38,922 bases of DNA from Acidobacteriota bacterium. GTDB lineage: Bacteria; Acidobacteriota; Terriglobia; Acidiferrales; UBA7541. A model generated the notes under the pieces. It was not told where the DNA came from. It was given only the letters and a program-made list of their open reading frames with translations, and did not search any database. The position numbers were made by a program, and so were the translations under genes. The DNA lies in the NCBI GenBank assembly GCA_003224525.1, contig QHZB01000214.1, positions 1 through 38,922 of the forward strand. The letters run 5' to 3'. Position 1 is the first letter of the stretch. Each line of letters starts with the position of its first letter. Of this stretch, positions 15,271-22,819 are shown one piece after another.

Positions 15271-15621
15271 ATGGTCACCATCAAAGTCAAGGACGGCACC
15301 CCACAGGGAGCCGAAACCTTGTGTGTGACCTGTCGCTGGGCTCGTATCGTGAAGGGATTCAGTTTGTCACAGGAGGAGATTCACTGCGGTTGGCTCTGGC
15401 GCAACCCGCTGGTGCAATTTCCGGTGAGTCAGTGCAGCACCTATGATGACAAGCGACTTCCGAGCAAATGTGACATGGAGAAGATCGCCTGGATTCTGCT
15501 AACGAAAAAGACGGGCCGCACCATCGGCTTCGTCACGGCCAAGCAGTTCCGGGAGATCGAAGGGGATGATGCAGAAATCATCCCAGCGGCAGCGATCGAT
15601 ACGACAGATACAGAACAGTAA
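15271..15621 (+). CDS. Small Cys-rich protein, C-x2-C-x17-C-x15-C family, copy 1
   Basis: 116-aa soluble protein starting MVTIKVKDG. Four cysteines lie at 18, 21, 39 and 55 (CVTC, HCGW, SQCSTY) with spacing C-x2-C-x17-C-x15-C, which suits one zinc or iron-sulfur site. A second conserved block is GRTIGFVTAKQFRE near residue 85. The frame stays open upstream to 15130, but homology with the next gene begins at ATG 15271, which has a GAAGAG-type ribosome-binding site. It has a paralogue directly downstream. I do not recognise a characterised family; metal binding is inference from the cysteine spacing. The genes stand just before the translesion polymerases. Confidence 0.8.
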   Translation: MVTIKVKDGTPQGAETLCVTCRWARIVKGFSLSQEEIHCGWLWRNPLVQFPVSQCSTYDDKRLPSKCDMEKIAWILLTKKTGRTIGFVTAKQFREIEGDDAEIIPAAAIDTTDTEQ

Positions 15622-15654: not shown

Positions 15655-15916
15655 ATGGTGACTATTCGCTCCGAAGATCCTTGTGCCGAACGAGGGTGCG
15701 TCGCTTTGCGGGACGTGCATCTGGGGAGTGGTCCGTAAGGGTTACCGCGCGGGCGAAGTGGAGACCTTCTGCCGCCTGGTTGGCCCGAACGCGCTTGTCC
15801 CCTTCCCGGTGAGCGAGTGTACCGGATACACCGACCGTCGCAGCCCGGATTCGGTGTCCGGGCGCCGCATCGGCTTCGTTTCAGCAGATGCGCTGCGCGA
15901 AACCGAGGAAAACTAA
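15655..15916 (+). pseudogene. Small Cys-rich protein, copy 2, frameshifted by one base
   Basis: ATG at 15655 has a strong GAAAGGGGG ribosome-binding site and opens MVTIRSEDP, matching the start of copy 1, but that frame then hits a stop at 15736. The body of the protein (LCGTC..., from the GTG at 15683 to the TAA at 15916) lies one frame over. Removing a single T at 15681-15682 joins the two and puts the first cysteine at residue 18, exactly as in copy 1. The full C-x2-C-x17-C-x15-C spacing and the GRRIGFVSADALRE block are then conserved. The GTG at 15683 has no ribosome-binding site. It is either a recent frameshift or a sequence error; the intact product would be about 86 aa. Confidence 0.7.
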
Positions 15917-16228
15917 GCGAAGGACGGTGGGCGGAGATTTTGGACCGCTCACAGTTTTTCCTTGACTTTCGCTTTTTGTTCGCCTATGGTGTTGGGCGGT
16001 AGAGGAAACGGGAAACGGGTGGCGCGCCGGCTCCATTGCCGACTAGGCTCTCACGAGACGGCCGCCGCCCGTTGAAAGTTCCGAGCCGTAAGCGGGGTGA
16101 GGGGTCAACTCGAAAGAGTGATCCCTCGACTCCGGAAGCCGACGAGTCGGCTCCTTCGCTCGGAGACAGTATATGCGTCCCGCTTCCCTGTGTGGACCGC
16201 TGTGCGGTCATAGTTAACAGGAGCCGCC
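15917..16228 (+). other. Promoter and hairpin-rich leader before the Y-family polymerase
   Basis: 312 bp without a gene. A strong promoter (15962-15990) would start transcription near 15997, leaving a leader of about 230 nt. Four stems can be drawn: 16015-16024 with 16063-16072 (10 bp, extended inward by 4 bp); 16099-16127 (12 bp, one bulge, GAAA tetraloop); 16137-16152 inside an outer CTCCG/CGGAG pair (16130-16165); and 16195-16209 (GACCGC/GCGGTC, TGT loop). The last ends 19 nt before the start codon. No known riboswitch class is recognised. The 16153-16170 part resembles a dispersed TTCGCTCGGA repeat. Confidence 0.55.
15962..15990 (+). promoter_or_regulatory. Sigma-70 promoter for the translesion polymerase gene
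   Basis: TTGACT (15962-15967), an exact 17-nt spacer and TATGGT (15985-15990): the best-matching promoter seen in the window. No palindromic LexA-like box was recognised over it. Confidence 0.6.
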
Positions 16229-17731
16229 ATGGACGTCTGTTTCGAAAACGTATTCATCACCCCCGCCGTTGAAGCAATCAACGTGATTCAAGCAACCGCC
16301 GAGGAAAATGATCGCGCGGCATCTTTCGACCCGCATCATGGGCATCGAGAGACGGACGCGGGGCAGGAAACTGCAGCGCAAAGTCCTGCGAACGATCCCA
16401 GTGCCAGCGCCAGTCCTGCGGGTTCAGCGGAAACGCCACGGACGGAAACGGCTGCGGAGAAAAACCCGTGGTCTGCCTGGGCGTGGCTGGGAATGTGCAA
16501 AAACTCCAGCCGCAAAATTCTCAACACTATTCCCAACATTGTTCACGTGGATGTGGACGCATTTTTCGCGTCGGTGGAGCAGGTGTTGAATCCCAAGCTG
16601 CGCGGCAAGCCCGTGCTGGTGGGACGCGGCTGTGTGGCTTCGGCGAGCTACGAAGCGAAGTTCCGCGGCGTGAAAACGGCGATGGGTTTTCGCGAAGCGC
16701 TGCGCATCTGCCCGAAAGCCATCGTCGTGCCCGGACAATACGAGCACTACGCCGATTTTGCGGAGCGCGTGCGGCGCATCCTTGAAACCTACACGCCCGC
16801 GGTCGAAACCGCCGCGCTGGACGACTTTTACCTCGACTTTGCCGGCACTGAGCGGCTGTATCCGGATTACGAAGCCACGCTGCGGCGCTTGCAGGCGGAG
16901 ATACGCGGCCGAACGGGCTTGAGCGTTTCGGTTGGCGCGGCGCGCACAAAAGTTGTTGCCTCCATCGCTTCACGGCTGGAGCGCCCGCGTGGGTTTCGCA
17001 TGATCGCGCCCGGCGAAGAAGAAAATTTCCTGACGCCGCTGCCCGTGGAAAAGCTCCACGGCATCGGCCACGTGCACGCGGGAGCGCTCGCCGAACGCGG
17101 CATTGCCACCATCGGCCAAGTGCGCCAGGTACCCAAGCCCGCGCTGCAGGCCGCCTTCGGCGAAGCCCTCGGCCAGCAAATCTGGGAGCGCGCCCGCGGC
17201 CTCGATGGCCGCGAAGTGCTGCTGCCTTCGACGCCGAAATCCGTTTCCCGCGAAACGACCATCGAAGGCGGCACCATCGACATGGAATTCCTCGGCGGCC
17301 TGATCGAGTATCTCAGCGAGCGCATCGGCTCAACGCTGCGCGAATACGGCAAGCAGGCGCGCACCATCGGCCTGCGCATCCGCTATGTCGATCACTTTTC
17401 GGCGCACCAGACGGCGCGGATCAGCAAACCAACCAACGACGAACGCGAACTGCTCGCCGCGGCAAAAGATCTGTTTGGCAAATTGTTCACGCGGCGCGTG
17501 GCCGTCCGCCTGGTCGGCGTCAGTGTGAACAACCTCGAAACCGACAAGCGCCAGCACGAACTCTTTGACACCAACGCGAACCGCCGCTGGTACCTGAACC
17601 GCGGCGTTGATTCCGTGCGCGGCCGCTACGGCTGGAACGCTGTCTTCTACGGCAAAGGCCTCGAGCTGCGCGAACATTACGCGACCAAGCCGAACGGCCT
17701 GGTTCTCTCGACGCCATGTTTATCGCGGTAA
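16229..17731 (+). CDS. Y-family translesion DNA polymerase (DinB/Pol IV-like) with N-terminal extension
   Basis: 500-aa protein. Residues about 103-440 form a Y-family polymerase: VHVDVDAFFASVE carries metal ligand Asp108 and the steric-gate aromatic pair 112-113. The second motif reads ALDDFYLD (Asp198, Asp199) where active DinB has SxDE, so the catalytic Glu is replaced by Asp. The thumb HhH (KLHGIGHVHA) and little-finger domains follow. QHELF (442-446) fits the beta-clamp motif QxxLF. An extra 100 residues at the N-terminus, mostly Ala/Ser/Pro/Glu-rich and probably disordered, are supported by GGAG 6 nt before ATG 16229; ATG 16493 would remove 88 of them. The dnaE2 gene follows, as in mutasome operons. 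Confidence 0.88.
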   Translation: MDVCFENVFITPAVEAINVIQATAEENDRAASFDPHHGHRETDAGQETAAQSPANDPSASASPAGSAETPRTETAAEKNPWSAWAWLGMCKNSSRKILNTIPNIVHVDVDAFFASVEQVLNPKLRGKPVLVGRGCVASASYEAKFRGVKTAMGFREALRICPKAIVVPGQYEHYADFAERVRRILETYTPAVETAALDDFYLDFAGTERLYPDYEATLRRLQAEIRGRTGLSVSVGAARTKVVASIASRLERPRGFRMIAPGEEENFLTPLPVEKLHGIGHVHAGALAERGIATIGQVRQVPKPALQAAFGEALGQQIWERARGLDGREVLLPSTPKSVSRETTIEGGTIDMEFLGGLIEYLSERIGSTLREYGKQARTIGLRIRYVDHFSAHQTARISKPTNDERELLAAAKDLFGKLFTRRVAVRLVGVSVNNLETDKRQHELFDTNANRRWYLNRGVDSVRGRYGWNAVFYGKGLELREHYATKPNGLVLSTPCLSR

Positions 17732-21419: not shown

Positions 21420-21737
21420 ATGATTCGACCAAGAGAACTCGCAAGACCAGAGAAGCAGATGGCGGAGCCGGAGGCGGGGCGACCGGCGGGGACGGGTGAG
21501 GAGTGGCTGGGGCGAAACCGCAGCAGCAAGCGCCGGCTCTGGGAGCGATTGAATCCGCGCAGCCGAAGACAAATTCGCATGATTGCCGAGGCGCTGGCGC
21601 TGCAGCAGACGCACGCGCAATTGCCAGATTCGGTGCGAGGGCGGCTGAGCGCAGCAATGGACGAGGTGGAACGGCTGGCGGTCCGCTTGAGGGCGCTGCT
21701 GGCGGAGGTAGCACGACGGACACCGCCGCGCTTGTGA
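21420..21737 (+). CDS. Possible 105-aa helical protein
   Basis: Open frame from ATG 21420 to TGA 21737. The C-terminal two thirds (from about EEWLGRNRSSKRRLWERL) is rich in Arg, Leu, Glu and Ala in an amphipathic helical pattern with an LRALLAEV end. There is no clear ribosome-binding site, and the frame continues upstream without a better start. Competing open frames exist on both strands because the DNA is GC-rich, so this call rests on composition and position before the PsbP-like gene. No function assigned. Confidence 0.4.
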   Translation: MIRPRELARPEKQMAEPEAGRPAGTGEEWLGRNRSSKRRLWERLNPRSRRQIRMIAEALALQQTHAQLPDSVRGRLSAAMDEVERLAVRLRALLAEVARRTPPRL

Positions 21738-21740
21738 GGG

Positions 21741-21769
21741 TTGCTGGCCACACCCAGCGGCGGGATACT
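21741..21769 (+). promoter_or_regulatory. Promoter of the PsbP-like gene, apparently leaderless
   Basis: TTGCTG (21741-21746), a 17-nt spacer and GATACT (21764-21769). The ATG at 21776 comes seven bases after the -10 box, the usual position of the first transcribed base. No Shine-Dalgarno precedes the ATG. Part of the box overlaps intergenic sequence just after the 105-aa frame. Confidence 0.45.
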
Positions 21770-21775
21770 CTCTAT

Positions 21776-22819
21776 ATGGCTGTCCCCAATAAGCGCGGCC
21801 CCTTTCTGCTTGTGATGATTGTTCTGGCATTCCCCGCGATCGGTGTTTCGGCGCGGGCGGATGAAATTCGCCTCAAGAGCGGCAGGAAACTGTATGGCGT
21901 AATCGTCGCTTACGAAGACGACATGTTCAAGATCAAGACCGACGATGGATATGAGCTGGTCAGAAAAGACAAAATCGAGTCCATTATTCCATCGACGCCG
22001 GCAGGAAAGCCGGAAGCGGCATCCGCGGGGAAGAAAGATGCAAGCCAGCATCCTTCAAAACCAGCGGCCGATTCGCAACCACAGGCTGAGCCAGCGGTGG
22101 CATCTTCGTCAGATGCTTCGGCGACACCAACGAACGCCAGCGCCAGGACCGTAGACCCCGGTATGGCAGGGAAAACCGGCAAAACGACGCCGAAAATAAC
22201 GAACGCGGCTGTGAAACCGGAAGTTCCAACGAGTACAGCGGCGGCCAATGTCGCAGCGCCTGCCATCAAAGGATCGCCGGCGGCAACGACGACCGGACTA
22301 GCACCGGCTGCGGCATCCCCTGCTCCCCCGAAGGAGCCTGAAGTTCCCGCAAACCGCGAAGAGGTCCAGGGAAATCTCTACACGAATTACACTCATGGTT
22401 TCCGGATGTACAAGGCGCCGAGCTGGAGCTTGATCGAAGAAGCGCGCGGCGCGCTTCCGAACGCGATTGTGGCGATGGGCACATCCAACGAATCAACATT
22501 GATGGTGGTCGGCGAGGAGAAGACGAAAGAACCGTTGGATGCGGCAGCCGCAGCGGTAGAGAAGCGGCTGCACGACGTCTACGCCAATTACCAGCGACTG
22601 TCGGAGCGCAAAACGGTGGTCGGCGGATTACCTGGGGTCGAGTATCAATATCGAGGGAAGGCCGACGAGCATGACTGGTCTGGAAAACTGGTCGTCGTTG
22701 CGCGCGGCAAGGACATGTTTACGGTGCTGGCCATGACCTACGCCGACAGCGACCTCATTCAGATTCAGGAAAACGTGATTGCCCGGGCCATCGCAAGCTT
22801 GGACTTCAGCGTTCACTAG
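21776..22819 (+). CDS. Secreted protein with PsbP-like C-terminal domain
   Basis: 347-aa exported protein: signal peptide about 1-28, then a short beta-rich segment (DEIRLKSGRKLYGVIVAYEDD) resembling the small domains found after signal peptides in other acidobacterial proteins. A disordered linker of about 130 residues, rich in Ala, Pro, Thr, Ser and Lys, follows. The C-terminal domain (about 205-345) has a PsbP-like pattern: YTHGFRMYKAPSWSL, a helix, and strands ending MTYADSDLIQIQENVIARAI. The role is unknown; such domains are often envelope-located. ATG 21776 is chosen because the signal peptide begins there; the frame stays open upstream. Confidence 0.75.
   Translation: MAVPNKRGPFLLVMIVLAFPAIGVSARADEIRLKSGRKLYGVIVAYEDDMFKIKTDDGYELVRKDKIESIIPSTPAGKPEAASAGKKDASQHPSKPAADSQPQAEPAVASSSDASATPTNASARTVDPGMAGKTGKTTPKITNAAVKPEVPTSTAAANVAAPAIKGSPAATTTGLAPAAASPAPPKEPEVPANREEVQGNLYTNYTHGFRMYKAPSWSLIEEARGALPNAIVAMGTSNESTLMVVGEEKTKEPLDAAAAAVEKRLHDVYANYQRLSERKTVVGGLPGVEYQYRGKADEHDWSGKLVVVARGKDMFTVLAMTYADSDLIQIQENVIARAIASLDFSVH

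Follow-up and report, generated by a model that had tools for sequence, protein, structure and literature searches.

RNA regulation as part of the SOS response is known from the IstR-1/tisB system of E. coli. Several other described systems come close to the locus examined here. In the imuA-imuB-dnaE2 cassette, a Y-family polymerase lies beside a DnaE homologue under SOS-type control, and the ImuB protein is catalytically dead (PMC6511836). The alphaproteobacterial LexA operator, as given for Caulobacter, is GTTCN7GTTC, a direct repeat with an 11-bp period that is found before lexA and other SOS genes (PMC9578287). Structured RNA candidates of Acidobacteria have been described as well, namely Acido-1 and Acido-Lenti-1, which PMC2864571 tabulates as not cis-regulatory.

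We analysed a stretch of acidobacterial DNA of 38,922 nucleotides (the window, by which the whole stretch is meant), in which a dinB-type polymerase gene and a dnaE gene follow an SOS-type promoter (Table 1); the nearest named relatives of its genome are MAGs of the gp2/Acidiferrum type. The locus shares with the imuA-imuB-dnaE2 cassette the Y-family polymerase beside a DnaE homologue and the SOS-type control; unlike the catalytically dead ImuB, the window protein keeps HVDVDAFF and matches the DNA polymerase IV models of NCBIfam, one of them (NF002677) above its cut-off. No imuA was recognised between the promoter and dnaE when the genes were read without profiles. The protein does not look like an inactive ImuB: HVDVDAFF and ALDDFYLD are present, and DNA polymerase IV models match. 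The RNA described below would, like that of IstR-1/tisB, be an RNA involved in the SOS response; unlike in that system, no toxin gene was recognised next to the window RNA. It shares with Acido-1 and Acido-Lenti-1 the status of a structured RNA candidate of Acidobacteria, while the window leader has no Rfam match to either of them.

Table 1. Features of the dinB locus, in positions of the window
Feature	Positions	Strand	Description or basis
SOS-type promoter/operator	15961-15990	+	-35 TTGACT 15962-15967, spacer 15968-15984 (17 nt), -10 TATGGT 15985-15990
Conserved 5' motif GGUAGAGGAAACGGG	15998-16012	+	Predicted transcript start; possible P0 5' arm; near-invariant in alignments
P1/P2 helix	16014-16073	+	5' arm 16014-16033, 3' arm 16055-16073; covariation, RNAalifold
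Conserved internal loop and P3	16034-16054	+	CAUUGCC-loop-GGCUCUCAC; most relatives AUUGYC...GRCUCUC; alignments
Variable linker, lineage-specific, repeat-like	16077-16178	+	GAAA hairpin 16099-16127, AGCCGACGAGTCGGCT hairpin 16137-16152, TTCGCTCGGA 16155-16164
Possible P0 3' arm CCCGCUUCCCUGUG	16179-16192	+	Predicted pairing
Hairpin GACCGCTGTGCGGTC	16195-16209	+	GACCGC-UGU-GCGGUC; between P0 arm and Shine-Dalgarno sequence; in some genus leaders
Shine-Dalgarno sequence of dinB	16219-16223	+	AGGAG; sequence
dinB-type Y-family polymerase, 500 aa	16229-17731	+	HVDVDAFF and ALDDFYLD motifs; Pfam IMS, IMS_C
DnaE-type polymerase III alpha subunit, 1102 aa	17891-21199	+	Pfam and NCBIfam
'DEIRLK' protein gene	21776-22819	+	3' part of ORF 21503-22819; next gene after dnaE

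The dinB start codon is ATG and, with a transcription start predicted near 15998, the leader would be about 231 nt long, in agreement with the structured leader of about 230 nt that the initial annotation had described. 'DEIRLK' is a label coined in this analysis; the protein is 63% identical to its counterpart at locus L057 over 21776-22813. The DinB group of the window has ALDDFYLD where the usual motif has DE; the ALDDFYLD pattern was found in most, though not all, intact loci. A small ORF at 15271-15621 had no Pfam match, and 15655-15916, just 5' of the promoter, appeared by eye to be a frameshifted second copy of it.

The promoter TTGACT-17-TATGGT proposed in the initial annotation was found at 15962-15990: a consensus scan of 15900-16300 identified the dinB promoter on the plus strand with 9/12 matches, and over both strands the scan gave two promoter-like sites against 0.1 expected. 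What the description as a strong promoter had missed is the SOS-type operator, a direct repeat TTCGC-N6-TTCGCC that lies within the -35/-10 spacer. This box resembles the alphaproteobacterial operators of PMC9578287 in that it, too, is a direct repeat with a period of 11 bp and precedes lexA along with other SOS genes, and is unlike them in its sequence and in its position inside the spacer; its role as a LexA operator is a prediction. When the leader DNA was used for searching, long matches were confined to the genus and those found elsewhere (about 25-35 bp) covered only the promoter. The promoter-only matches were located at other loci and in other families before lexA, DinB-superfamily genes and another dinB, and also 5' of one operon that we take to be an ImuA-like/polymerase operon, one protein of which (L066) matched no Pfam or NCBIfam family. 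The box pattern gave 41 matches in 38 of 61 genomes, many of them the same dinB leader, and its reversed control gave none.

Thirteen genomes were searched for LexA DNA-binding domains, and the set was restricted to loci with a recognised LexA N-terminus, leaving out three weaker above-cut-off matches (24-34 bits); the below-cut-off L178 had no LexA pattern. In this set of 12 lexA genes, which come from 11 genomes including that of the window, every gene has TTCGC-N6-TTCGC on its 5' side, at 68-121 nt from the N-terminal motif of LexA. Nine of the 12 boxes were within four mismatches of the 25-mer and the other three were shifted by one base between the -35 and the repeat; the lexA of the window's own genome (G000; L175/L192) is preceded by TTCGCTTTCTTTTCGCCTA. 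Among 2000 random 350-nt segments of the contig, 1988 had a best mismatch of at least 9, and the remaining 12 contain the box itself. A looser form of the pattern gave 23 sites in six genomes against one control match, and the proteins encoded 3' of these sites include LexA, RecA (L201) and DinB-superfamily members as well as a response regulator, a CarD-like protein and an HAD protein, the last three of which may be chance. Judged from sequence, the dinB box is an SOS-type operator by its shared occurrence with lexA and recA, and we infer from this regulon that LexA would bind it. The acidobacterial SOS regulon could be mapped from the predicted operator TTCGC-N6-TTCGCC; no acidobacterial LexA box was present among the literature matches listed. 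Boxes before lexA, recA and DinB-superfamily genes (L180-L202, L167-L179) were seen in several acidobacterial genomes.

Downstream of this promoter lies a conserved RNA of about 79 nt (15998-16076), which begins at the predicted transcription start. In 29 of the 30 distinct leaders that made up the comparison set, the core starts 5-7 nt past the -10 hexamer, i.e. at the expected +1, and in the exception, L046, a duplicated GGTAGA moves the core start 7 nt further. The core consists of GGUAGAGGAAACGGG followed by a long hairpin with the internal loop AUUGYC/GRCUCUC. The 267-nt stretch as a whole folds at -125.7 kcal/mol (z = -4.28), and none of 200 dinucleotide shuffles was equally stable. Two alignments were used to examine the helices, and the covariance models and null tests were built on their sets. 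Alignment A1 held 23 of the 30 leaders, leaving out six with large insertions between or in helices and L013 with a longer arm, while A4 held 32 rows aligned by sequence alone, leaving out L007, L011, L014, L053, L055 and L058 (insertions) and the degenerate L144; L164 and L165 were found later and stand outside A4.

In A1, double-sided changes were found in 9 of 22 pairs against a mean of 2.8 in shuffled alignments (0/500 shuffles as high), and the pairing was destroyed upon sliding the partner; the number of further pair types was not raised (140/500 shuffles as high). In A4, 92.3% of the cells were paired against a null mean of 38.1, the summed G was 324 against a null maximum of 246, and both values as well as the double-change covariation were unmatched in 300 tree-based simulations, whereas 2/300 simulations matched the number of double-change pairs. 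Taken helix by helix, the double-change count was not significant for P2 (61/300) and P3 (65/300), and no single pair was significant by APC-corrected G, the best being 16039-16047 (E 0.12). Since no individual pair is significant, covariation is claimed at the level of the structure, where P1-P3 covary beyond the tree-based null; compensatory changes in relatives, on which the initial annotation had made its leader depend, therefore do exist at that level. Inspection of A4 by eye did not support a pseudoknot in which AGAG from the 5' motif would pair with CUCU from the internal loop, as L013, L019 and L050 change one side only. In five leaders (L007, L011, L053, L055, L058) an optional extra helix between the 5' motif and P1 gives a branched RNA, and in most of them this helix reads CCCC...GGGGUAAA.

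The RNA belongs to no known class as far as Rfam 15 is concerned, in line with the earlier judgement by eye that no known riboswitch class fits: no family reached its gathering score in the leader, and the window gave two tRNAs only. With permissive filters the best match was RF01093 at 23.2 bits against a cut-off of 35, and RF01093, Yfr1 and Plant_SRP were rejected as identities of the leader on scores far below cut-off. Such an RNA is the subject of no title among the matches listed in the open-licence literature. With regard to a possible riboswitch, the leaders show a conserved internal loop, a linker to dinB that ranges from 26 to 240 nt, and a predicted effect on Shine-Dalgarno opening that is small.

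Of the 36 genus genomes, 32 contained the RNA according to model R1, each in exactly one copy. In the four misses, dinB is cut at the contig edge (G032), only a distant dinB paralogue is found (G012, 77% complete), or the genome is 82% (G002) or 73% (G021) complete. Model R2 found the RNA in 41 of 89 genomes of the family and in none of 6 other genomes of the order. A scan of the class with R1 (399 genomes) produced 40 matches, 39 of them within the family; the exception, G097 (E 1.1e-4), has neither an upstream box nor dinB and was taken as chance. The sole R2 match in 396 genomes drawn from the phylum was the window's own genome. Scans of more than 40 genomes ran with stricter filters and may have missed weak members. 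The box stands 5' of the RNA in 41 family loci, in a degenerate form in G070 and a weak one in G033. The RNA is missing from the SOS-boxed dinB of at least one genome in the family, G091. One record titled Betaproteobacteria (L023) carries an acidobacterial dinB locus with the leader, and is possibly a mislabelled MAG. In another family of the order, the SOS-boxed dinB leader of G037 (L148:1135-1300) is also strongly structured (z -4.33) and has a GGUAGGG/CCCUGCC helix; the only R2 match there was of 10.5 bits and on the opposite strand, and homology is not claimed.

In most species the RNA would form the 5' end of the dinB-dnaE message, and its relation to the ribosome-binding site was examined in the predicted folds. 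In short leaders, the best partner of the 5' motif is a CCCGCUUCCCUGCC-like segment directly 5' of the Shine-Dalgarno (SD) sequence; in L010, L014 and L016 the 3' arm of this putative helix P0 ends at the SD, 10 nt from the start codon, and in the L010 fold P0 encloses P1-P3 and leaves the SD immediately beyond the helix. In the window, the possible P0 arm at 16179-16192 and the SD are kept apart by a hairpin. Of 39 minimum-energy folds, 37 showed P0-like pairing of at least 8 pairs, several of them through a different segment. Judged as a set, the leaders averaged 10.7 pairs against 8.3 with shuffled downstream sequence, and 29/39 leaders formed at least 10 pairs, whereas the highest number across 40 shuffle sets was 23. 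Leader by leader, the pairing exceeded its own 90th percentile in 13/39, and the partner was significant (p<0.05) in 16/40. Compared with the genus consensus, the leader's own 5' motif was the better partner in L138, L165, L009 and, with a margin of 0.4 kcal/mol, L141, the worse one in L139, L140, L142, L164, L058 and L057, and an equal one in L137, whose motif is the consensus. On this mixed result a strictly covarying P0 was rejected, and P0 therefore rests mainly on the convergence of partners and on the set-level shuffles: the element is possibly closed by its conserved 5' end, on mixed evidence from modelled pairing.

These folds bear on the possibility that the RNA is purely a cis-acting leader that tunes dinB translation or mRNA stability, P0 tying up CCCGCUUCCCUGCC and folding, or a bound ligand or protein, setting DinB output. 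The pyrimidine-rich CCCGCUUCCCUGCC segment is able to pair with the SD (GCUUCC/GGAGC), and the P0 arm at the SD of the three short leaders and the L010 fold speak for such a leader. In 22 of 30 leaders the presence of the 5' motif raised predicted SD opening (means 0.36 versus 0.27 without it), and among 21 folded leaders there were several with predicted local hairpins that sequester the SD. The effect is nevertheless small, a shuffled 5' motif gave 0.31, and the distance from the RNA to the start codon varies from 26 to 240 nt among the 21 leaders with a start placed. A dinB match free of stops to the contig limit was found in 31 of the 41 RNA-bearing family genomes, the window included, which is what a plain cis leader predicts and counts against an RNA with its own role; these 31 include L011, in which the N-terminal extension and the polymerase domain are in different frames, and some rows gave no match to the motif patterns. 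Against this stand eight RNA-bearing genomes without an intact dinB at the locus, and we regard a purely cis-acting leader as possible but doubtful.

The eight genomes, out of 41 (two others, L046 and L053, have contigs that end before the polymerase domain), keep the RNA in different states of the locus. In G025 the dinB match is split between two frames, with HVRMDGFF where others read HVDVDAFF; G003 and G001 retain dinB fragments only (45% and 37% identity); and G033, G070, G061, G162 and G277 gave no dinB match in the locus searched. A search for dinB elsewhere, which covered G070, G061, G162 and G277, gave only distant paralogues, and no dnaE was found at the eight loci within the sequence covered, some of these stretches being short. 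Because the RNA is present where dinB is broken or absent, it is not strictly a dinB leader, and the assignment to the Y-family polymerase made in the initial annotation is correct for the usual case only. In G025, G003, G001, G033 and G070 the 'DEIRLK' gene lies downstream and co-directional with the RNA, so that cis control of 'DEIRLK' is possible in these five. In G061, G162 and G277, the long downstream ORFs are on the opposite strand for about 7, 3.9 and 4.7 kb, respectively, when overlapping frames on the RNA strand are disregarded, and a promoter-like site falls exactly at the box (one per 501-nt stretch, 0.0-0.1 expected). The RNA at these three loci thus has, like a stand-alone small RNA gene, a promoter-like site of its own and no long downstream gene on its strand, and it is conserved between G162 and G277. 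A consensus scan found no intrinsic terminator after the RNA there, nor in the window leader, and a transcript may end in other ways.

Promoter and leader might also linger by chance after the loss of dinB-dnaE, the RNA being a regulator of dinB and nothing else. Some orphan copies are visibly degraded and may be decaying: both the 5' motif and the -35 have been lost in G070, and the -35 of G033 is weak. The L141 and L142 folds differ little from shuffles in stability (z -1.85 and -1.27). Drift of this kind is, however, not what G162 and G277 show when compared with each other: identity is 97% over the box and 90% over the RNA, while the adjacent flanks (five 50-nt windows) have fallen to 34-48%, which is our main reason for thinking that the RNA is selected for itself. 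Helices also remain paired after changes on both sides, and P1 has been rewritten yet is still paired in L054 and L049, which have dinB fragments, and in L164, L141 and L142, which have no dinB. We therefore consider chance persistence unlikely.

Because the promoter and the paired, rewritten helices persist after dinB has decayed or been lost, the RNA most likely acts in its own right. Our reading, to which we give an even chance, is that of an SOS-induced structured RNA with a role of its own that usually doubles as the dinB-dnaE leader. The SOS-type promoter, through its LexA-type operator, would transcribe a structured RNA of about 80-105 nt from +1, consisting of the long hairpin P1-P2-P3 with its conserved internal loop. 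P0 is a possible closing helix, formed by the 5' end and a segment that immediately precedes the next Shine-Dalgarno sequence. Either processed from the leader or made alone, this RNA would act in the DNA-damage response, for example by its internal loop binding a protein or a partner RNA, and where it is attached to dinB, P0 may also hold the pyrimidine-rich segment off the SD. The wider claim, that this is a new family of DNA-damage-induced noncoding RNAs of Acidobacteriota with an essential or at least selected SOS role that predates its use as a leader or does not depend on it, free-standing after loss of the polymerase, is put forward tentatively and with somewhat less than even confidence. 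If true, an RNA layer would be added to the SOS response of a widespread, little-studied soil phylum, for whose SOS regulon the box supplies a predicted operator, and the genomes that kept the RNA and lost the polymerase would be a natural experiment in which the function of the RNA is separable from that of the leader.

Translation of the region was considered as well. A GTG at 16019 opens a frame of 18 aa to a TGA, and if this leader peptide were translated the hairpin could be an attenuator; 16 of 29 cores have an open GTG-to-stop frame of 17-18 aa. In the other 13 the frame is shifted, extended, without GTG, or has a GTG followed by a near-immediate stop, the peptide sequence differs in L012, L016 and L017, and core length differences are not multiples of three. 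With the frame kept in only these 16 cores and the peptide variable, a leader peptide was rejected as very improbable.

The alternative raised in the initial annotation, that the leader is repeat-derived sequence without function, is scarcely credible for the element as a whole, as the 5' core occurs once per genome and follows the SOS-type box in 41 family loci, although 16077-16178 is variable and partly dispersed. A dispersed repeat family is accordingly not what the conserved stem belongs to, and no repeats were found within 15900-16300. The 3' part does look repeat-like, as had been noted: GATCCCTCGACTNCG with at most one mismatch occurs 8 times in the genome, the leader copy included, against 0 for the reversed control, so that part of the 3' half looks like dispersed sequence. 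TTCGCTCGGA with at most one mismatch was counted 10 times in the window against 5.85 expected, which is not significant there since 7 of 100 shuffles reach 10. In a DNA search, pieces of the linker recurred elsewhere, and seven leaders with 26-37 nt between the RNA and the start codon are without the entire linker, its hairpins and TTCGCTCGGA. All four stems first described are present in the window; given these short leaders and recurring pieces, three of them are lineage-specific additions and one belongs to the conserved core, and the conserved element is not the whole leader but 15998-16076 plus the possible closing arm near the ribosome-binding site.
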